This document shows positions 4,263 to 40,198 of a stretch of 64,000 nt of DNA, piece by piece. How positions within the stretch are numbered: position 1 is the first letter of the stretch; every line of letters begins with the position of its first letter. The notes under the pieces are model-generated. The model was not told where the DNA came from, made no database searches, and saw only the letters and a list, made by a program, of their open reading frames with translations. Source of the stretch: Sphingorhabdus sp. YGSMI21 (GTDB taxonomy: Bacteria; Pseudomonadota; Alphaproteobacteria; Sphingomonadales; Sphingomonadaceae); the NCBI RefSeq assembly GCF_002776575.1, contig NZ_CP022548.1, forward strand, positions 3,239,001 to 3,303,000, given 5' to 3'. The translations under genes were made by a program, and so were the position numbers.

Positions 4263-5343
4263 CAATCCCAATCCGGACATCGATATCAAGCCTGTGACTG
4301 AAGGGCCGACCCCTGACCCCGCCACCCGGCGATCGACTGGCCGCAATATCGGTCGCTGGATATTGATGCTGTCGGTGCCGCTCTTGCTCGCAACATTGGG
4401 TATTTATTACTGGATCGCCAGCGACCGTTACGCTTCCACCGACAATGCCTATGTGCAGCAGGATATCGTGTCCATTTCTCCCGAGGTGGGCGGAAAAATC
4501 GTGCAAGTGGCGGTCGAGGAAAACCAGCAGGTCGCGGCCGGCGATCTGCTTTTTGCGATAGACCCAGCGCCCTTTGAACTGACCGTCGCGCAAAGCAATG
4601 CGCGCATCGCCGCCGCACAAGTCGAAGTCCAGAATCTCCGGACCGATTATCAGGTGAGCGGCGTGGACATAGAGGTCGCGCGACAGGACATTGCCTTCGC
4701 CCAGTCCAACTATCAGCGGCAGGCGGCCTTGATGGCGAAGGGCTTTACCACCCGGGCCCGGCTCGACGCCGCCCAGCATGAAGTCGATCTGGCCAGAGCC
4801 AGATTGAAATCCGCCCAGGCGGATGTCGTCGCGGCCAGGTCACGCCTGTCGACAGGATCGGCCGCTCCGGGCGAAAATCCGGATGTTGCCGAGGCCAGAG
4901 CGGCCCGGGACCAGGCCTTGCTCGATCTGGAACGCACGCGGGTGGTGGCTCCGGTCGCCGGACGGGTCGCCCAGTCTACCCGGCTGCAAATCGGGCAGAT
5001 GATGGTCTCCGGACTGCCGGCGCTTTCCATCGTGGACGACAAGAATAGCTGGGTGGAGGCCAATTTCAAGGAAACCGACCTCGCCAGGATGAAGGTCGGT
5101 CAGAAAGCAAAAATCACCTTCGACGCTTATCCGGAGCTGGAACTCAAGGGCCGTGTCGATAGCATCGGTGCGGGCACCGGATCGGAATTCTCTGTCCTGC
5201 CGGCCCAGAATGCCAATGCCAACTGGGTCAAGGTCACGCAGCGCGTTCCCGTGCGGATCAGGATCGTGGATCCCTCGCCGCGGCAGCTGATTGCGGGGAT
5301 TTCTGCGGAGGTAACCGTCGATCTGCGCACTGGTAAAGAGTGA
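4255..5343 (+). CDS. emrA: HlyD/EmrA-type membrane fusion protein
   Basis: Periplasmic adaptor of a tripartite multidrug exporter, 362 residues. One N-terminal membrane helix at about 30-50 (WILMLSVPLLLATLGIYYW) anchors it. It is followed by the first half-lipoyl domain (SISPEVGGKIVQVAVEENQQV), a coiled-coil hairpin, the second half-lipoyl domain (VVAPVAGRV) and a beta-barrel domain. It would bridge the MFS pump to an outer-membrane channel; no TolC-like gene is encoded here. The start chosen overlaps marR by 8 nt, and the stop overlaps the pump gene start as GTGA. The drug or metabolite is not known. Confidence 0.9.
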   Translation: MADNPNPDIDIKPVTEGPTPDPATRRSTGRNIGRWILMLSVPLLLATLGIYYWIASDRYASTDNAYVQQDIVSISPEVGGKIVQVAVEENQQVAAGDLLFAIDPAPFELTVAQSNARIAAAQVEVQNLRTDYQVSGVDIEVARQDIAFAQSNYQRQAALMAKGFTTRARLDAAQHEVDLARARLKSAQADVVAARSRLSTGSAAPGENPDVAEARAARDQALLDLERTRVVAPVAGRVAQSTRLQIGQMMVSGLPALSIVDDKNSWVEANFKETDLARMKVGQKAKITFDAYPELELKGRVDSIGAGTGSEFSVLPAQNANANWVKVTQRVPVRIRIVDPSPRQLIAGISAEVTVDLRTGKE

Positions 5344-6890
5344 ACGCGCAAAATCCCGATGAAGCAGCGCTGCCGGTAGACAACCGGGTCCTGCTCACCA
5401 TTGCCGTCATGCTCGGCAATATCATGCAGATACTCGATTCGACGATCGCCAATGTCGCGCTGCCGCACATGCAGTCGGGCTTGGGCGCCACGCTCGACAC
5501 GGTGACCTGGGTATTGACCAGCTATATATTGGCCTCGGCGGTCGCCATTCCGATCACCGGCTGGGTCGCGGACCGGATCGGATCGCGCAAGCTGTTTCTC
5601 TGGTCGATCGCCGGATTCACTCTGTCCTCGCTATTGTGCGCCACTGCTACCAGTTTGGAAATGTTGGTCTTTTACCGGGTGATGCAGGGCCTTTCCGGTG
5701 CCTTCGTGATGCCGCTCTCGCAGACGGTCATGCTCGACATCAACCCGCCGAAAAACCATCCCCGAGCGATGGCGATCTGGGGCATGGGCGTGATGATTGC
5801 GCCAATCACCGGACCGATCATCGGCGGCTATCTGACAGAAAATTACAGCTGGGAATGGATTTTCCTGATCAATGTTCCGCTGGGCATCATTACTTTCATC
5901 ATGCTCTGGACACTGCTCCCCTCGCGACCGATTGCCCGGCGCAAGTTTGACCTGTTCGGATTTGCCTTGTTCGCCGCCTTCATGGCCTCTTTCCAGCTGA
6001 TGCTTGATCGGGGCAATGGCGAGGACTGGTTCGAAAGCTGGGAAATCATCATTGAATTCGGCATTGCCGCCGCTGCCCTGTGGATGTTCGCCATCCACAT
6101 GTCGACAGCGCGAAATCCGTTCCTGTCGCGCGATCTGTTCCGGGACCGCAATCTGGTCACCGCGATGCTGCTGATGATCGTCGCCGGTGTATCGATGTTC
6201 TCCACCATGGCCCTGCTGCCGCCGATGCTGCAGAATATCTATCATTATACCCCTATTGATGCGGGCATAATATTGGCGCCGCGTGGCGTCGGTGTGTTTC
6301 TGGGCATGGCCATCGGCAGTCGCCTGGCGACCGTTGTCGACGCACGGTTCGTCGTTGCGACCGGAATGGCGCTGGCTTCCTATTCGGCCTGGATGATGAC
6401 CGGGTGGAGCCTGGAAATGGACCGCTGGCCGGTGATCACCAGCGGCGTCGTCCAGGGCCTCGGGATGGGCGCGCTATTCGTCACGATGAACATATTGGCT
6501 TTTTCCACTCTGTCGTCCGCGCTGCGAACCGACGCCGCCAGCTTGCTCAATCTTTCGCGGACGATCGGGGCTTCGGTCGGGATAGCGGTATTTGTCGGGC
6601 TGCTCGGCCGCAACTGGCAGACCAGCCACGCCGATCTCGCCGGCCATGTCACCGAAGCGCGGCTATCCCCGCTCAGCCCGACCAGCATCAACCGGCTCGG
6701 ACAATATGGCGAACAGGCGATGATGATGATCGACGGCGAGGTGAACCGGCAGGCGCTGATGATCGCCTATCTCGGCGATTTCTGGCTGATGGCGGTGGTT
6801 ACCGGTTTGTGTGTTCCGCTGGTGTTCCTGATGAAGAAACCCCAGCGGATGAAAGTTGATTCAGCCGAAGCGGCCAGCGCGGCGCACTAG
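5340..6890 (+). CDS. emrB: DHA2-family MFS drug exporter, EmrB/QacA type
   Basis: Inner-membrane proton-driven efflux pump of 516 residues, the usual length for 14-helix DHA2 transporters. The motif D/LDSTIANVALPHMQ after the first helix and the motif-A region WVADRIGSRKLF mark the EmrB/QacA family. Motif C is visible as GPIIGGYL. It starts with GTG overlapping the stop of the adaptor gene, so the two are translationally coupled. The stop codon overlaps that of the convergent asd gene through a shared CTAG. Specificity cannot be predicted. Confidence 0.92.
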   Translation: MNAQNPDEAALPVDNRVLLTIAVMLGNIMQILDSTIANVALPHMQSGLGATLDTVTWVLTSYILASAVAIPITGWVADRIGSRKLFLWSIAGFTLSSLLCATATSLEMLVFYRVMQGLSGAFVMPLSQTVMLDINPPKNHPRAMAIWGMGVMIAPITGPIIGGYLTENYSWEWIFLINVPLGIITFIMLWTLLPSRPIARRKFDLFGFALFAAFMASFQLMLDRGNGEDWFESWEIIIEFGIAAAALWMFAIHMSTARNPFLSRDLFRDRNLVTAMLLMIVAGVSMFSTMALLPPMLQNIYHYTPIDAGIILAPRGVGVFLGMAIGSRLATVVDARFVVATGMALASYSAWMMTGWSLEMDRWPVITSGVVQGLGMGALFVTMNILAFSTLSSALRTDAASLLNLSRTIGASVGIAVFVGLLGRNWQTSHADLAGHVTEARLSPLSPTSINRLGQYGEQAMMMIDGEVNRQALMIAYLGDFWLMAVVTGLCVPLVFLMKKPQRMKVDSAEAASAAH

Positions 6891-18632: not shown

Positions 18633-19196
18633 ATGGCGAAGTTTTTTGGAAATCTGAATGCGGTGATGATTGTCGGACTGATCGCGGCAATCGCACTGAT
18701 GTTTGGCCTTGATGGCGATATGGTCAACGGCAACACAATCGGCCGCTGGCTGCACCTGTTCTTCGGGGTGCTCTGGATTGGTTTGCTTTACTATCTGAAC
18801 TTTGTTCAGGTGCCGCTGATGCCAACTATTCCGGACGAGCTCAAGCCCGCAGTCGGCAAGCATATCGCACCGAAAGTCCTTTTCTATTTCCGCTGGGCCG
18901 CCTTGCTCACCGTGGTCACCGGCCTGTATGTGGCATGGGTCAGCGGCTGGGTTCACCAGGCGATGACGCTACAGTCAGGATATACGTTGATCGGTGTTGG
19001 CATGTGGATCGCCATCGTCATGGCAGCCAATGTCTGGTTCATCATCTGGCCGAACCAGAAGAAGGTCCTCGGCATTGTCGAAGCCACAGCTGACCAGAAA
19101 GCCTCTGCGGGCAAGATCGCTATGATGGCGTCGCGCACCAATGTGCTGCTTTCGCTGCCGATGTTCTACACGATGGTAAACGCCAATATGGGGTAA
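18633..19196 (+). CDS. urate hydroxylase PuuD-like membrane protein
   Basis: Membrane protein of 187 residues with about five helices, matching the N-terminal membrane domain of the PuuD/urate-oxidase family (GRWLHLFFGVLWIGLLYYLNFVQVP, KVLFYFRWAALLTVVTGLYV, MWIAIVMAANVWFIIWPNQKKVLG). In full-length PuuD a cytochrome c domain follows; it is absent here, so urate oxidation is not assured. Conserved histidines suggest haem binding. A GGGGGGAATATA ribosome-binding site precedes the ATG. The last six codons (VNANMG) and stop are the first copies of a 17 bp tandem repeat, so the C-terminus is defined by that array. Confidence 0.85.
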   Translation: MAKFFGNLNAVMIVGLIAAIALMFGLDGDMVNGNTIGRWLHLFFGVLWIGLLYYLNFVQVPLMPTIPDELKPAVGKHIAPKVLFYFRWAALLTVVTGLYVAWVSGWVHQAMTLQSGYTLIGVGMWIAIVMAANVWFIIWPNQKKVLGIVEATADQKASAGKIAMMASRTNVLLSLPMFYTMVNANMG

Positions 19197-19277
19197 ACGC
19201 CAATATGGGGTAAACGCCAATATGGGGTAAACGCCAATATGGGGTAAACGCCAATATGGGGTAAACGCCAATATGGG
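19176..19277. repeat. 17 bp tandem repeat, six identical copies, spanning a stop codon
   Basis: Six perfect head-to-tail copies of gtaaacgccaatatggg. Copy 1 encodes the last residues of the PuuD-like protein and copy 2 supplies the TAA stop. The unit is not a multiple of three, and every copy carries TAA in the frame that matters, so copy number change would not alter the protein. Perfect identity indicates recent expansion. Confidence 0.97.
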
Positions 19278-19308
19278 ATAATATTGGAAGATCTGGAAGC
19301 ATGTTGAA

Positions 19309-19331
19309 GGGGGCTTGGCGGCCCCCTTTTT
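19309..19331 (+). terminator. intrinsic terminator after PuuD-like gene
   Basis: Stem GGGGGC/GCCCCC with a 6-nt loop followed by a run of five T. It sits just beyond the tandem repeats and at the end of the convergent pspF gene. Confidence 0.8.
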
Positions 19332-20377
19332 CATGTGCCCAGCAGATCATGCCGTTTCAGCGAATGGCGCAACTGGTCATAGGTCAGGTTGAGTGCCTTG
19401 GCAGTGTGCCGCTGATTATAGCGCGACTTGGCCAGCGCGGCCTCCAATATCCGCTTTTCAAAGGCTTCCACCGCCGCTTTCATGTCATCGATGCCGTCGA
19501 ACGCAATGTCATTGGCAGCAGTCTCGACGCGCGCCGGTGCGGTCTCGCCAACCGGCTGCTTGGCCGGTTCGCTTTTCTGCTCAGCCTGCATCTCGCGCGG
19601 CTTCCAGGGAGATTCGAACGGATCGAACACAATATGGTCGACCGCTCTGCTGTGATCATTCCATTGATAGACCGCGCGCTCGATCACATTGCGCAATTCC
19701 CGGACATTGCCCGGCCAGTTGTGGCGGTTCAGGGCCTCGGATGCGAGCCGGCCGAAGCCGGGCCAGGACGGCCATTCCAGTTCCGCCGCCATCCGGCGAC
19801 CGAAATAGTCGGCCAGCACCGGGATGTCGCCTTCGCGCACGCGCAGCGGCGGCAGCGTCACCACCTCGAACGACAGCCGGTCGAGCAAGTCGGCCCGGAA
19901 TTTATTCTCTTCCGCCATTTTCGGCAGGTCGGCATTGGTTGCCGCGACGATGCGGACATCGACCCGTTGCGGCCGGGACGATCCGATCCGCGTGATTTCC
20001 CCATATTCGACAGCCCGCAGCAACCGCTCCTGCGCGCCGGTGGACAATGTCCCCAGTTCGTCGAGGAACAATGTGCCGCCGTCGGCCTCTTCAAACCGCC
20101 CTACCCGCGCCTTGGTCGCGCCGGTGAAGGCACCGGCCTCATGGCCGAACAGTTCCGCTTCGATCAGGGTCTCCGGCATGGCGGCACAATTGAGCGTGAT
20201 AAACGGCCCGTCCCAACGCATGCTGAGCCGGTGAAGACGTTCTGCAATAAGTTCCTTGCCAGTGCCGCGCTCACCGACCACAAGCACGGGACGGTTAAGC
20301 GGCGCGGCCCGACTGGCTTTTTCCACCGCATCGAGAAAGGCGCCCGATTCGCCGACAAATTGACCTTCGCGTTCCAT
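19331..20377 (-). CDS. pspF: sigma-54 enhancer-binding activator PspF
   Basis: AAA+ activator of the phage-shock operon, 348 residues. There is no N-terminal receiver domain, as in PspF, which is instead held inactive by PspA. Walker A is GERGTGKE at 35-42, the sigma-54 contact loop GAFTGA is at 82-87, Walker B is GTLFLDEL, and a Fis-type helix-turn-helix lies at the C-terminus (QRHTAKALNLTYDQLRHSLKRH). The region between ATPase and HTH is longer than in E. coli. The start chosen is the ATG before EREGQFVGES; 12 upstream codons are less likely. Divergent from the psp operon that it should activate. Confidence 0.95.
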   Translation of the reverse strand: MEREGQFVGESGAFLDAVEKASRAAPLNRPVLVVGERGTGKELIAERLHRLSMRWDGPFITLNCAAMPETLIEAELFGHEAGAFTGATKARVGRFEEADGGTLFLDELGTLSTGAQERLLRAVEYGEITRIGSSRPQRVDVRIVAATNADLPKMAEENKFRADLLDRLSFEVVTLPPLRVREGDIPVLADYFGRRMAAELEWPSWPGFGRLASEALNRHNWPGNVRELRNVIERAVYQWNDHSRAVDHIVFDPFESPWKPREMQAEQKSEPAKQPVGETAPARVETAANDIAFDGIDDMKAAVEAFEKRILEAALAKSRYNQRHTAKALNLTYDQLRHSLKRHDLLGT

Positions 20378-20387
20378 GGCCAAGATA

Positions 20388-20405
20388 TAGTGTAAAATCC
20401 CACTA
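20388..20405. promoter_or_regulatory. candidate PspF upstream activating sequence
   Basis: Inverted repeat TAGTG-N8-CACTA in the pspF/psp intergenic region, about 75-90 bp upstream of the sigma-54 promoter, a normal distance for an enhancer site. Its position just before the pspF start would also allow autoregulation. Assignment is inference from symmetry and place. Confidence 0.5.
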
Positions 20406-20477
20406 AATAGCAATTAATACTATGCACGCGACCCGCAGAAAATTGATATTTCTTTTATTTTCAGTATCTTAAACAAG

Positions 20478-20494
20478 TTGGCACGGCTTCTGCA
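20478..20494 (+). promoter_or_regulatory. sigma-54 (-24/-12) promoter of the psp operon
   Basis: TTGGCACGGCTTCTGCA matches the sigma-54 consensus with GG and GC separated by exactly 10 nt. Expected transcription start is about 20505, 30 bp before the first small gene. Confidence 0.88.
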
Positions 20495-20534
20495 ATGTTG
20501 GTTTCATATAGGAACACAACCACTGGAGAACACC

Positions 20535-20711
20535 ATGCCAGCCCTGAACAAAATGAGCCGCACCGATATTTCCGCGATCGTTTCGATCCTGCTTTTCAGC
20601 GCGATGATATTGATCAGCGCCGTCGGACCTGCACAGGCCGAAGGCAATATGGTGAAAAACCAGTCCGAGTCCCCCGCTGTCAGCTTCGTTAACATAGGTT
20701 ATCGGGCGTGA
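20535..20711 (+). CDS. exported microprotein at the head of the psp operon
   Basis: Unrecognised 58-residue product. A well-spaced GGAGA ribosome-binding site precedes the ATG, and the gene is the first one after the sigma-54 promoter. Residues about 11-35 form a hydrophobic signal-like segment (ISAIVSILLFSAMILISAV) ending in GPAQAEG, a good signal-peptidase I site, leaving a mature tail of roughly 23 residues. It could equally remain as a membrane-anchored peptide. A stem-loop follows before pspA. No homologous function is known to me; co-expression with Psp suggests an envelope-stress role. Confidence 0.65.
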   Translation: MPALNKMSRTDISAIVSILLFSAMILISAVGPAQAEGNMVKNQSESPAVSFVNIGYRA

Positions 20712-20860: not shown

Positions 20861-21535
20861 ATGGCAGGTATTTTTTCAAGAACGCGCGACATTATCGCCG
20901 CCAACGTCACCGACATGCTGGACAAGGCCGAAGACCCCTCGAAAATGATCCGCATGATCATTCTGGAGATGGAAGAGACTTTGGTTGAAGTTCGCGCTTC
21001 CGCAGCCCGCACGATTGCCGACCAGAAGGAAATGCGCCGTCACATCGACAAGCTCGACCATCTGACCGAAGACTGGAGCGAAAAGGCCCAGCTCGCGCTC
21101 TCCAAGGATCGCGAAGATCTTGCCAAGGCCGCCCTGGTCGAAAAGCGCAAGGCTGCAGATATGGCTGACCAGCTGAAAGCCGAAATCAAGGTTCTTGATG
21201 ACGCGCTTCGCTCCTCTGAAGGCGACATCGCGAAACTGCAGAAGAAGCTGCAGGAAGCCCGCTCGCGCCAGAGCAGCCTGGTCAACCGGCTGGAAAGCGC
21301 AGAGAATCGCGTGAAGCTGCGCGAAATGTATAATGGTGAAAAGGTCCACGATGCCTTCTCCCGTTTCGAATATCTCGAACGCCAGGTCGATTTCGCCGAA
21401 GGCCGCGCCGATGCGCTTGGCATGGGCGGAGAGCCGCAGAGCCTGGAAAACCAGATCGCTGCGCTCGAATCCAGCGACAAGGTTGATGAAGAACTGGAAG
21501 CCATGAAGGCGGCCATGAAAAAAGGTGACGCATAA
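20861..21535 (+). CDS. pspA: phage shock protein A
   Basis: Peripheral membrane protein of the PspA/IM30/ESCRT-III family, 224 residues, the same size as E. coli PspA. It inhibits PspF in unstressed cells and forms membrane-protecting scaffolds under stress. The N-terminal amphipathic helix (AGIFSRTRDIIAANVTDMLDKAEDP) and the conserved EMEETLVEVRASAARTIADQKEM follow the family, and the rest is a long coiled coil. A longer in-frame opening exists, but a GGAG site seven bases before this ATG fixes the start. Stop and pspB start overlap as TAATG. Confidence 0.97.
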   Translation: MAGIFSRTRDIIAANVTDMLDKAEDPSKMIRMIILEMEETLVEVRASAARTIADQKEMRRHIDKLDHLTEDWSEKAQLALSKDREDLAKAALVEKRKAADMADQLKAEIKVLDDALRSSEGDIAKLQKKLQEARSRQSSLVNRLESAENRVKLREMYNGEKVHDAFSRFEYLERQVDFAEGRADALGMGGEPQSLENQIAALESSDKVDEELEAMKAAMKKGDA

Positions 21536-21843
21536 TGCAGGAAGAACTCATCATCATTCCCATCGTGATGGGAACATTGTTCATCGGTCTGCCCTGGTTG
21601 ATTTTCCACTATGTGACCAAATGGAAAACCGCCGCGACGATCACCAATGAAGACGAACATTTGTTGGAAGAATTGCACCACATGGCCCGCCGTCTGGACG
21701 ACCGGATGGAAACCATTGAACGGATCATGGCCGCGGACAACCCCGATTGGCGTCAATCCGCTCTGCCGGCATCGAAAGCCGAACAAGCCCCAACGCTCGA
21801 AAATTTTGACGAGCTTCTGAAGAAAGAAAGGCACCCCTCATGA
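21535..21843 (+). CDS. pspB: phage shock protein B
   Basis: Inner-membrane PspB of 102 residues: one helix at about 5-25, then a cytoplasmic leucine-rich coiled coil. The segment ARRLDDRMETIERIMAADNPDWR matches the E. coli PspB region ending ESILDAEHPNWR. A C-terminal extension of about 25 residues follows. PspB and PspC sense membrane damage and release PspF from PspA. The gene overlaps pspA by 1 nt and pspC by 4 nt. Confidence 0.92.
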   Translation: MQEELIIIPIVMGTLFIGLPWLIFHYVTKWKTAATITNEDEHLLEELHHMARRLDDRMETIERIMAADNPDWRQSALPASKAEQAPTLENFDELLKKERHPS

Positions 21844-22223
21844 GCTCCTCACGCACGAAATTCTATCTCGACAAGCAGCGCGCAAAATGGAGCGGTGTCT
21901 GCGCCGGGATCGCCGACTATACCGGGATCAATGTCGCCTGGGTCCGGCTTGCAGCGATCATTGCTACAGTGACCTTCGCTTTCCCCTGGACGCTGGTTGC
22001 TTACTGGGTCGCGGCAAAGATTTCCGAACCGAAACCGGTCGGCATGTATCTGAGCGATCCGGAAGACACGAAATTCTGGCAGGGCGTGCGCCAGTCGCCC
22101 CGCCGCACGACCCGCGATATCAAGTCGCGTTTCCGCGAGATCGACCGCAAGCTGGCCGACATGGAACTTTACTACACCAGCAAGAACACGACTCTGTCGA
22201 ACGAAATTGAAAATCTGCGCTAG
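21840..22223 (+). CDS. pspC: phage shock protein C
   Basis: PspC-domain membrane protein, 127 residues. FYLDKQRAKWSGVCAGIADYTGINVAWVRLAAI is the PspC signature, followed by a second hydrophobic stretch (FPWTLVAYWVAAKI) and a cytoplasmic C-terminal helix (IKSRFREIDRKLADMELYYTSKN) typical of Psp regulators that contact PspA/PspB. ATGA overlap with pspB. Followed by five small membrane-coiled-coil genes in the same direction. Confidence 0.95.
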   Translation: MSSSRTKFYLDKQRAKWSGVCAGIADYTGINVAWVRLAAIIATVTFAFPWTLVAYWVAAKISEPKPVGMYLSDPEDTKFWQGVRQSPRRTTRDIKSRFREIDRKLADMELYYTSKNTTLSNEIENLR

Positions 22224-22246: not shown

Positions 22247-22546
22247 ATGGATTGGGGGAGCCCCGAATTTGTAATCGCCATCATCGCCGTCAGCTACGGA
22301 GGATGGATCATCAACAACTGGATCAGAGCCAAACATGGCTATGAACTGGAAGATGAATGGGGCGGAAAGAGCAGCAAGGCTGATCCTAACGAACAGCGCA
22401 AAATCGAGCTTCTCTCGAACGAGAATGCAGAGCTGGTCGGCAAGATCGACCGCTTGCAGGAAAGGCTCCAGGTCCTCGAAAGGATCGCTACCGATCCGGC
22501 GAAACGCACGGCAGACGAAATTGAAGCACTGAGGGAGAAGAACTGA
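22247..22546 (+). CDS. PspB-like membrane/coiled-coil protein 1
   Basis: First of five tandem small paralogues downstream of pspC. The 99 residues have an N-terminal membrane helix (about 6-25), a short basic/acidic linker (RAKHGYELEDEWG) and a coiled coil with NENAEL and RLQVLERIATD then DEIEALR. The pattern R-hydrophobic-LERI-xTD resembles the C-terminal part of PspB. It has its own GGGAG ribosome-binding site 23 bp after pspC, and its last base overlaps the next start. No catalytic residues. Role inferred as PspB-like sensing or scaffolding. Confidence 0.8.
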   Translation: MDWGSPEFVIAIIAVSYGGWIINNWIRAKHGYELEDEWGGKSSKADPNEQRKIELLSNENAELVGKIDRLQERLQVLERIATDPAKRTADEIEALREKN

Positions 22547-22875
22547 TGGATCCGGAAAAGATCGCCATGATCACACAGCTCGCACCAATTATCGCGACGG
22601 TCGCTGCCATCGCGGTCGGCGGCTGGGTCCTGACCACCTGGATGCGGATCAAGAACGGCTATCCCCTCGAAAACCAGTGGGGCAAGTCCGTCTATCCCAA
22701 GACCGACAAGGAAGCGGTCGAACGGGTCAAATTGCTGACCAACGAAAATGCCGAACTGCGCGCCGAAATCGGCTCGATGAAAGACCGGCTCGCCAATGTC
22801 GAACGGATTGTCACCGATGACAGCCATCGGCTGACACAGGAAATTGAACAGCTGCGCGACAAGCGCGCGAACTGA
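22546..22875 (+). CDS. PspB-like membrane/coiled-coil protein 2
   Basis: Second paralogue, 109 residues. Membrane helix at about 13-32, then RIKNGYPLENQWG, closely matching RAKHGYELEDEWG of the preceding protein, and a coiled coil VKLLTNENAELRAEIGSMKDRLANVERIVTDDSHRLTQEIEQLRDKRAN. The shared NENAEL and EIExLR blocks show recent common ancestry with protein 1. The start overlaps the previous stop by one base, so translation is coupled. Confidence 0.8.
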   Translation: MDPEKIAMITQLAPIIATVAAIAVGGWVLTTWMRIKNGYPLENQWGKSVYPKTDKEAVERVKLLTNENAELRAEIGSMKDRLANVERIVTDDSHRLTQEIEQLRDKRAN

Positions 22876-22888
22876 AGGGATTGAATCG

Positions 22889-23143
22889 ATGGAAGGGATT
22901 ATCGCGTTACTGATACCATTTGGAGCCTTCGCCGTAGCAGGCTTTGCCATCTGGACCGGTCACCAGCGCAAGCTGATCAAGATGCGGGGCGAGTTTCCCG
23001 GAAGCCAGGACGCCGATGCGGAGCGGATGCGGGAGGAATTGAAATATCTGAAGGAGCGCGTTGCCGTGCTCGAACAGATTACCACCGACGGCCACAGCAC
23101 CCGGCAGCTGGAAAGCGAGATTGAGCAGCTGCGCAGTCGCTGA
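22889..23143 (+). CDS. PspB-like membrane/coiled-coil protein 3
   Basis: Third paralogue, 84 residues, shorter because the NENAEL heptads are missing. N-terminal helix at about 3-21, then a basic juxtamembrane region (HQRKLIKMRG) and the coiled coil REELKYLKERVAVLEQITTD with ESEIEQLRSR at the C-terminus. The KYLKERVAVLE block is shared with protein 4. The start chosen follows GAAGGGATTG; an upstream in-frame start would overlap the previous gene. Confidence 0.78.
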   Translation: MEGIIALLIPFGAFAVAGFAIWTGHQRKLIKMRGEFPGSQDADAERMREELKYLKERVAVLEQITTDGHSTRQLESEIEQLRSR

Positions 23144-23176
23144 CCGGCACGCGAAAAAATTTGAGGGAGTGTTTTA

Positions 23177-23437
23177 ATGAATCCGTTTGAAATGGTCGTT
23201 GCCATCATCATCGTTGTGACGATCGGCAAAGTGCTGAGCACCCGTTACCGGGCGCAAAATGGAATTATCGAAGACCAGCATGGCAACGAGATTGCCGCGC
23301 AGAATCAAGATGCTGGTCGACTGCAGGAAGATGTCAAATATCTCAAGGAACGCGTCGCGGTGCTGGAGAAGATCGCCACCGACGATCGCGGGGCCCGGGA
23401 ACTGGAAAACGAGATCGAAAAATTGCGCGACCGGTAA
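23177..23437 (+). CDS. PspB-like membrane/coiled-coil protein 4
   Basis: Fourth paralogue, 86 residues, preceded by a GAGGGAG ribosome-binding site. A hydrophobic helix at about 5-20, then RYRAQNGIIEDQHGNE, related to the linker of proteins 1 and 2, and the coiled coil DVKYLKERVAVLEKIATDDRGARELENEIEKLRDR. It combines the linker type of 1/2 with the coiled coil of 3, which supports serial duplication within the operon. Confidence 0.78.
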   Translation: MNPFEMVVAIIIVVTIGKVLSTRYRAQNGIIEDQHGNEIAAQNQDAGRLQEDVKYLKERVAVLEKIATDDRGARELENEIEKLRDR

Positions 23438-23464
23438 GCCGGTCCGGGAAGTGGAAGGACAAGC

Positions 23465-23698
23465 ATGATGCAAGAACCTGCTTTTTATATGATCACCGCG
23501 GCTTTTTCGCTGATCGGACTGACGGTCCTGGCGCTGGTCGCCCTGCGTGGCTGGCGCGACTGGATCGCGCTCAAGTCCCGCGAAATCGAGCAGCGTCGCG
23601 AGGATAATCCCCCCACCGCGACATCGCGAATCGAGGTTGCCGACCTCAAGGAACGTATCCGCAAGCTGGAAGCGATTGCCGCCGGGGTGGAGCTTTAG
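23465..23698 (+). CDS. PspB-like membrane/coiled-coil protein 5
   Basis: Last and most diverged paralogue, 77 residues. Helix at about 8-29 (YMITAAFSLIGLTVLALVALRGW), a charged linker, and a short coiled coil VADLKERIRKLEAIAAGVEL that stops after the LExI motif. The GGAAGGACAAGC ribosome-binding site is clear. A palindromic repeat begins 7 bp after the stop and may end the transcript. Confidence 0.75.
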   Translation: MMQEPAFYMITAAFSLIGLTVLALVALRGWRDWIALKSREIEQRREDNPPTATSRIEVADLKERIRKLEAIAAGVEL

Positions 23699-23705
23699 TC
23701 AAACA

Positions 23706-23780
23706 CCGTTCGTCCTGAGCTTGTCGAAGCATCGGCCTGAGCGCGTGCCGCCTGTCCTTCGACAAGCTCAGGACGAACGG
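23706..23780. repeat. REP-like palindromic repeat, family A
   Basis: Perfect 24 bp inverted arms at 23706-23729 and 23757-23780, beginning CCGTTCGTCCTGAGCTTGTC when read inward, with a 27 bp centre. It lies between the psp operon and sufE. Same family as the copies in trmD and between gatC and gatA. Confidence 0.9.
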
Positions 23781-40128: not shown

Positions 40129-40198
40129 CCGTTCGTGCTGAGCTTGTCGAAGCATTGGTGTTTGCCGCCGGGCCCTTCGACGGGCTCAGGGCGAACGG
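40129..40198. repeat. REP-like palindromic repeat, family A
   Basis: Imperfect 24 bp inverted arms (CCGTTCGTGCTGAGCTTGTC read inward on the left) with a 22 bp centre, lying between gatC and gatA. Same family as the copies in trmD and before sufE. Confidence 0.88.

Follow-up and report, generated by a model that had tools for sequence, protein, structure and literature searches.

Five consecutive small genes (g1 to g5; 22247-23698, + strand) lie directly 3′ of the pspF/pspA/pspB/pspC set in the window, by which we mean the whole 64,000-nucleotide stretch analysed, and the sequence data support their assignment to one psp operon under PspF/sigma54 control, of which they form the distal part. 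The data also support a distant kinship of their products to both PspB and PspC, and such gene rows are nearly confined to one GTDB family, f1, which by its members we take as Sphingomonadaceae. Our favoured reading, in which we place about even confidence, is that these proteins are extra membrane-bound tails that would bind PspA, PspB and PspC in a mixed complex. Together with similar rows in the related bacteria examined, the five genes suggest an enlarged membrane-stress machine. The locus is laid out as follows.

19331..20413, − strand: pspF, the divergent sigma54 enhancer-binding activator (TIGR02974, 487.3 bits; cut-off 443.55)
20478..20495, + strand: sigma54 (-24/-12) promoter-like site TTGGCACGGCTTCTGCAA, 5′ of the pspA operon, matching 10/11 consensus positions
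20535..20711, + strand: small ORF of 58 aa with a hydrophobic, signal-like N-terminus, between the sigma54 site and pspA
20861..21535, + strand: pspA (TIGR02977, 279.2 bits; cut-off 242.95)
21535..21843, + strand: the true pspB (PF06667, 92 bits, and TIGR02976, 93.6 bits with a cut-off of 51.7; both passed)
21840..22223, + strand: the true pspC, with tail end LADMELYYTSKNTTLSNEIENLR (TIGR02978, 119.7 bits; cut-off 104)
22247..22546, + strand: g1, class a, with a membrane helix, linker HGYELEDEWGG, coiled coil and PspC-type tail end
22546..22875, + strand: g2, class b, with a membrane helix, linker NGYPLENQWGK, coiled coil and PspC-type tail end
22889..23143, + strand: g3, class d, with a membrane helix, KYLKERVAVLEQITTD coiled coil and EIEQLR tail (ATG start preferred to a TTG lying upstream)
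23177..23437, + strand: g4, class e, with an MNPFEMVV membrane helix, KYLKERVAVLEKIATD coiled coil and EIEKLR tail
23465..23698, + strand: g5, class z, the usual last gene, with RIEVADLKERIRKLEAIAAGVEL and without the TD/EIxxLR tail

The encoded proteins are 99, 109, 84, 86 and 77 aa long (g1 to g5), and neighbouring genes in the row from pspA to g5 overlap or are at most 33 bp apart. Operon membership is read from this layout, g1 to g5 forming a same-strand run after pspC behind the sigma54 site. Together with the divergent pspF, this bears out at the level of sequence a preliminary description of this DNA, which had placed five small genes after pspABC in the psp operon under PspF. Of the 265 gaps between consecutive genes from pspC to the end of the array, counted over all loci read, 255 were no longer than 50 bp (median 15 bp; the walk had a gap limit of 250 bp), and a scan for sigma70 patterns gave no entry between g1 and g5. 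The sigma54 site begins 382 bp ahead of pspA. Sites matching at least 10 of 11 positions were present in 49 of 53 loci of the family and in 21 of 27 loci of other families (one more locus, lacking pspA, was left out), compared with 12 of 1620 shuffled 650-bp stretches.

The ORF at 20535-20711 matched no NCBIfam model at E ≤ 1e-4; on visual inspection, ORFs comparable in length and build, ending in A, are common at this position in family loci. It may be the counterpart of Zymomonas ZMO1062 ('pspD'), which passages of the Zymomonas literature report as induced along with pspA. Genes between ZMO1060 and ZMO1065, as well as ZMO1069, are named in passages of PMC3495753, PMC8645129, PMC8237431, PMC2651186 and PMC8543907; ZMO1066 is named neither in those passages nor elsewhere in the literature searched. 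Just 3′ of g5, at 23709-23777, the 21-bp sequence TTCGTCCTGAGCTTGTCGAAG occurs as an inverted pair, which may be a terminator or a dispersed repeat; a third copy with one mismatch lies at 40132. A 17-bp tandem repeat, GGTAAACGCCAATATGG, at 19175-19281 (6.3 copies, 98% matches) sits at the end of an ORF at 18633-19196, just before pspF.

The general build of the five proteins is as first described: hydropathy gives each one N-terminal hydrophobic segment, the layout of helix and short coiled coil is PspB-like, and the blocks HGYELEDEWG (g1), NGYPLENQWG (g2) and KYLKERVAVLE (g3 and g4) are all present. An LExI-xTD motif, ascribed to all five, holds for four, g5 having LEAIAAG and no TD. By direct reading, g1 to g4 carry a spaced tail motif, [RK]x4Ex3T[SD]x7[EQD][ILVF]xxL, with a longer loop in g3 and g4, and g5 lacks it. 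Among array genes other than the g5 type (class z), 145 of 216 carry the motif in its strict form and 201 of 216 with a looser loop; because it was designed after these sequences had been seen, the rate is descriptive. In PspC, the motif was found in all 26 distinct proteins of other families but in only 26 of 52 from the array-bearing family, the other 26 missing it even with T or S allowed. It was absent from 80 PspBs (52 + 28), 30 FtsB, 29 ATP synthase b and 80 PspA proteins, from 49 g5-type proteins, and from 9,815 background ORFs, a set that excludes ORFs matching the array, PspB or PspC profiles. Thus the layout and coiled coil of the array proteins appear PspB-like, and the tail end (T-D turn, EIxxL) appears PspC-like.

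The predicted topology is single-pass with the N-terminus outside and the C-terminus inside. With class labels assigned by regular expression (68 of 267 genes remaining unlabelled), the C-terminal side of the membrane segment was the more positive in class b (44/44), class c (40/40), class d (19/19), class e (20/23), class z (44/48) and the unlabelled genes (56/66); in class a this held for just 10 of 25, and the positive-inside rule is not clearly followed. The location of the tail is not simple, because PspC itself may have two topologies, as suggested in passages of PMC3068692.

Searches with family models place the array near both PspB and PspC. None of g1 to g5 passed a curated PspB or PspC cut-off in NCBIfam or Pfam. 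NCBIfam PspB scores were 15.5 bits for g1, 12.5 for g3 and 14.7 for g4 (cut-offs 51.7 or 90), g4 gave 12.5 bits with Pfam PspB (cut-off 25.6), and no PspB match was listed for g2 or g5 in either collection. Against TIGR02978, g2 scored 24.1 bits (E 2.5e-5, PspC positions 33-121; cut-off 104), and PF04024, the N-terminal PspC domain, matched none of the five. When 22 divergent members (none of the g5 type, three of them single genes from family f8, described below) were compared with 18,950 NCBIfam models (E ≤ 0.01), the PspC model was matched by 12 and PspB by 5, followed by a second PspB model (4) and six further models (1 each). In the reverse direction, when 28 loci of other families were searched with an array profile at more than 8 bits, PspB was found in 27 and PspC in 20, in addition to the single genes of f8 and an unrelated ORF; in the 20 loci listing both, PspB scored higher in 16 and PspC in 3, with one tie. 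The best match among solved structures had an E of 0.007, to helical proteins without evident relation.

Profile comparisons gave the same double likeness. These used 264 of the 265 array genes, a 138-aa gene of locus L111 being omitted here and kept in the other counts. The whole array matched PspB of other families at a probability of 95 (over 26 columns) and of its own family at 83, and matched PspC tails of its own family at 92 and of other families at 69. The classes differed: class c favoured PspB (93 and 86 versus 14 and 33), class b favoured the PspC tail of its own family (95 versus 17 and 66), and class a was even (87 and 86). Class e, that of g4, matched the f8 single genes with an hhalign probability of 99.3. 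The g5 type reached at most 1.6 with PspB or the PspC tail, and its best links were to classes c, d and e (89-91). The PspB-type identity first proposed for all five genes stands for the layout and as a distant kinship; it needs refining in that no PspB cut-off is reached and the tail end is PspC-like, and g5 itself gave no signal for PspB or the PspC tail.

Coiled coils alone can produce part of this signal. The control families reached 64 (FtsB) and 12 (ATP synthase b) with the whole array, and at worst 76 (FtsB with class c, in a control set in which at least one row looks misread) and 81 (ATP synthase b with class e). Reversed array profiles gave at most 11.2, save for class b against PspC tails of the family (61.7). 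We judge from these controls that the kinship signal lies above, but not far above, the level that coiled coils can give. The control values, like the failure of g1 to g5 to reach any PspB or PspC cut-off, are what would be expected if these were unrelated small membrane coiled-coil proteins riding in the psp operon, with their likeness to PspB and PspC due to convergence. We give this explanation little chance, since the spacing of the tail motif did not occur in the background, FtsB or ATP synthase b sets and since PspC and PspB lead all 18,950 NCBIfam families. Plain PspB paralogy was rejected as the sole label, no PspB cut-off being reached and the tail end being absent from all PspBs, and a pure PspC-tail label was softened because PspB scores equal or better for parts of the array in profile search and profile comparison. 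'PspB/PspC-type' is a fairer label than either name alone. Both kinships would be explained if the PspC tail is a divergent PspB domain, a passage of PMC11237479 describing 'PspC fused to a divergent C-terminal PspB'.

All five genes are under purifying selection. Over eight loci of the genus, median dN/dS was 0.063 for g1, 0.117 for g2, 0.065 for g3, 0.148 for g4 and 0.018 for g5, the most constrained of the five (19 of 28 pairs were usable for g3, and 28 for each of the others); these low values rule out decaying ORFs. The preliminary description had suggested serial duplication from the pattern of shared blocks. An expanded set is indeed present; however, recent duplication was ruled out, because only 5 of 265 array genes had their nearest counterpart within their own locus, in a comparison that left out pairings between loci of the window's genus but included them for other genera with two loci. 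Array classes are shared by different genera and mostly keep one order, with the g5 type last in 49 of 53 family loci. The duplications are old and were followed by gain and loss. One relative of g2, P0084 (177 aa), has a class-a tail joined to a full class-b protein, which could reflect either a g1-g2 fusion or an error in the sequence.

The survey of copy number downstream of pspC revealed an array directly after that gene in all 53 psp loci read in the family, the window included. The arrays held one to eight genes: 1 (1 locus), 2 (1), 3 (4), 4 (12), 5 (17), 6 (11), 7 (5) and 8 (2). These loci comprise the window, 20 found through g2 matches (16 from the genus and 4 from the family) and 32 found through PspC matches independent of the array, and they leave out some genera of the family (e.g. 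g33, g34, g38, g44 and g48). In contrast, 26 of 28 psp loci from other families of the order had no array genes by the 250-bp walk; the two exceptions, L129 and L141, were excluded from the family counts. L141 has a single array-like gene. In L129, from an array-free family, an apparent PspB duplicate with a WRERLD ending lies directly after pspC (5274-5495, − strand) and scores 30 bits against the PspB profile. Visual inspection of family f8 showed one common arrangement in L138, L140 and L141: pspABC is followed by a second, short PspC domain and then by one g4-like gene, which the walk had missed in L138 and L140. The fourth f8 locus, L139, has no array-like gene. Short second PspC-domain genes without a tail occur near pspC in these three loci and in L052 and L117. 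The existence of domain-only and tail-only genes suggests that the halves of PspC are separable.

Wider searches agree with this distribution. A g2 match was found in 36 of 60 genomes: its own, 29 of 31 congeners (the two without a match being 80% and 89% complete), 4 of 4 from the family and, weakly, 2 of 24 from the order. Relatives of the g2 protein numbered 6,013 at E ≤ 0.001; among the 120 matches listed, the nearest named ones were from Parasphingorhabdus/Sphingorhabdus, and the entries were named 'hypothetical' or 'uncharacterized' protein or bore bare coordinates. A scan of named genomes with g5 confirmed at least 544 relatives. The best 80 came from Sphingomonas, Sphingobium, Sphingopyxis, Sphingorhabdus, Parasphingorhabdus, Novosphingobium, Blastomonas, Hephaestia and Stakelama, and otherwise from unclassified Sphingomonadales/Sphingomonadaceae and three 'Proteobacteria' MAGs. 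Among these 80 loci, which were picked through g5 and overlap in some genomes with the 53-locus set, pspC lies within the stored piece in 77, each of which has two to eight array genes.

Across the class, the profile of 22 divergent members matched at least 7 of 289 genomes of the class, with at most 18 candidates scored per genome and 262 genomes not among the matches listed: four from the family (the window's own included), one from another alphaproteobacterial genus and two weak. In that other genus, all 13 genomes searched have an array-related gene. In one of them, G408, a pair of small array-related genes encoding a membrane segment and coiled coil, of which the larger is the gene present in all 13, lies about 80 kb from pspC (L223:3727-4209, − strand), adjoining genes that by eye resemble dut and coaBC; three more genomes of the genus have a second array-related match close by. 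A phage origin of the array was rejected, g2 having no match in 50,697 phage records and PHROGs at E ≤ 0.01 giving four weak matches for g2 and none for g1, g3, g4 or g5. A defence-system reading was also rejected, PADLOC giving one weak match, to g2. Among plasmids, an 880-kb replicon of Sphingomonas parapaucimobilis gave the one match, which covered 22% of the query; the features under this match are PspC and three hypothetical proteins.

In the mechanism that we favour, g1 to g4 would be predicted single-pass inner-membrane proteins with a cytoplasmic C-terminus, in which a PspB-like layout and coiled coil end in a PspC tail module (T-D/S turn and EIxxLR helix) without the PspC domain, and the product of g5 would be a divergent partner under strong constraint, its gene usually standing last in the operon. 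Upon membrane stress, the five would be made together with PspA, PspB and PspC and would join them through their coiled coils, so that the array would multiply and diversify the membrane-bound tails able to bind PspA (or PspB and PspC); PspA would be drawn to the membrane and off PspF, giving a graded or tuned response. Free-standing PspC-type tails, expected to be co-made with PspA, would most simply be further binding partners in the same complex. Among the literature matches listed, none gave expression or interaction data for any array gene.

The differences among classes would also suit a multi-input sensor, in which the helix and linker of each array protein read a different membrane state and pass it to the PspA/PspC core: membrane segments and linkers differ by class, the coiled-coil tail is shared, and the classes recur across genera. 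We consider this unlikely, as no ligand or signal is known and as a copy number of one to eight among relatives fits dosage or redundancy equally well. We also think it quite unlikely that the array proteins are structural effectors, forming a hetero-oligomeric scaffold or a docking patch for PspA that stabilises the membrane with no role in signalling to PspF. Many copies of small single-pass coiled-coil proteins would suit a scaffold, and in Yersinia, PspB and PspC alone protect against mislocalised secretins (passages of PMC5596341); however, the array tail end resembles the PspA-binding part of PspC.

Our preferred reading, that of extra tails in a mixed complex, can be taken further. PspA is ESCRT-III-like, and Sphingomonadaceae have a sphingolipid envelope. 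A speculative and rather doubtful extension is that the two-component PspBC switch has been made combinatorial in this family: several co-expressed, membrane-anchored tails of old and separately conserved classes would assemble into mixed coiled-coil complexes, and the composition of these would determine the time and place at which PspA is released from PspF and polymerises, possibly with a tie to the sphingolipid envelope. To our knowledge, how PspB and PspC sense membrane stress is unsettled. In enterobacterial psp systems the two act as a pair, and the expanded free-standing tails offer natural part-by-part variants of the sensor. With the PspC tail and the PspC domain parted in the array, either can be studied by itself, and many proteins now named 'hypothetical' would gain a testable role.

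Among known systems, PspD, PspE and PspG of E. coli are small accessory members of the PspF regulon, as the array proteins would be. One close likeness is to the tail of PspC (TIGR02978/PF04024), which shares with g1 and g2 the coiled coil, the [RK]x4Ex3T[SD] turn and the EIxxL helix at the same spacing, the loop being two residues longer in g3 and g4. PspC is encoded in the same operon and its model is the one matched by the largest number of array members, but, unlike them, it has the N-terminal PspC domain. PspB (TIGR02976/PF06667) resembles the array proteins in its small size, its N-terminal membrane helix, the following coiled coil with LExRLxxxERI and its place in the operon; it differs in the T-D/EIxxL tail end, found in none of the 80 PspBs. 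According to passages of PMC5596341, PspB and PspC form an inner-membrane complex in enterobacteria, and once the system is on, PspA can be bound by the cytoplasmic C-terminal domain of PspC, freeing PspF; passages of PMC3068692 report that a putative leucine zipper of PspC is required for PspA interaction and signalling.

The preliminary description knew of no described function for such a set. PspB duplicates in psp operons have been mentioned before, in one sentence of PMC11237479 (mSystems 2024) with AOL22920.1 as example. Judged by its listing, this was the only work on the subject among the papers found on PspB duplicates, paralogues, homologues and PspB-like proteins, and its available passages do not include the array size, the classes or the family restriction. 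Passages of PMC9239133 (mSystems 2022) describe multiple PspC domains in many genomes, and 'Sphingo' occurs in the main text of neither paper. Within the searches made, four features of the array are new: its size, its combination of PspB and PspC traits, the age of its classes and its near-confinement to one family.
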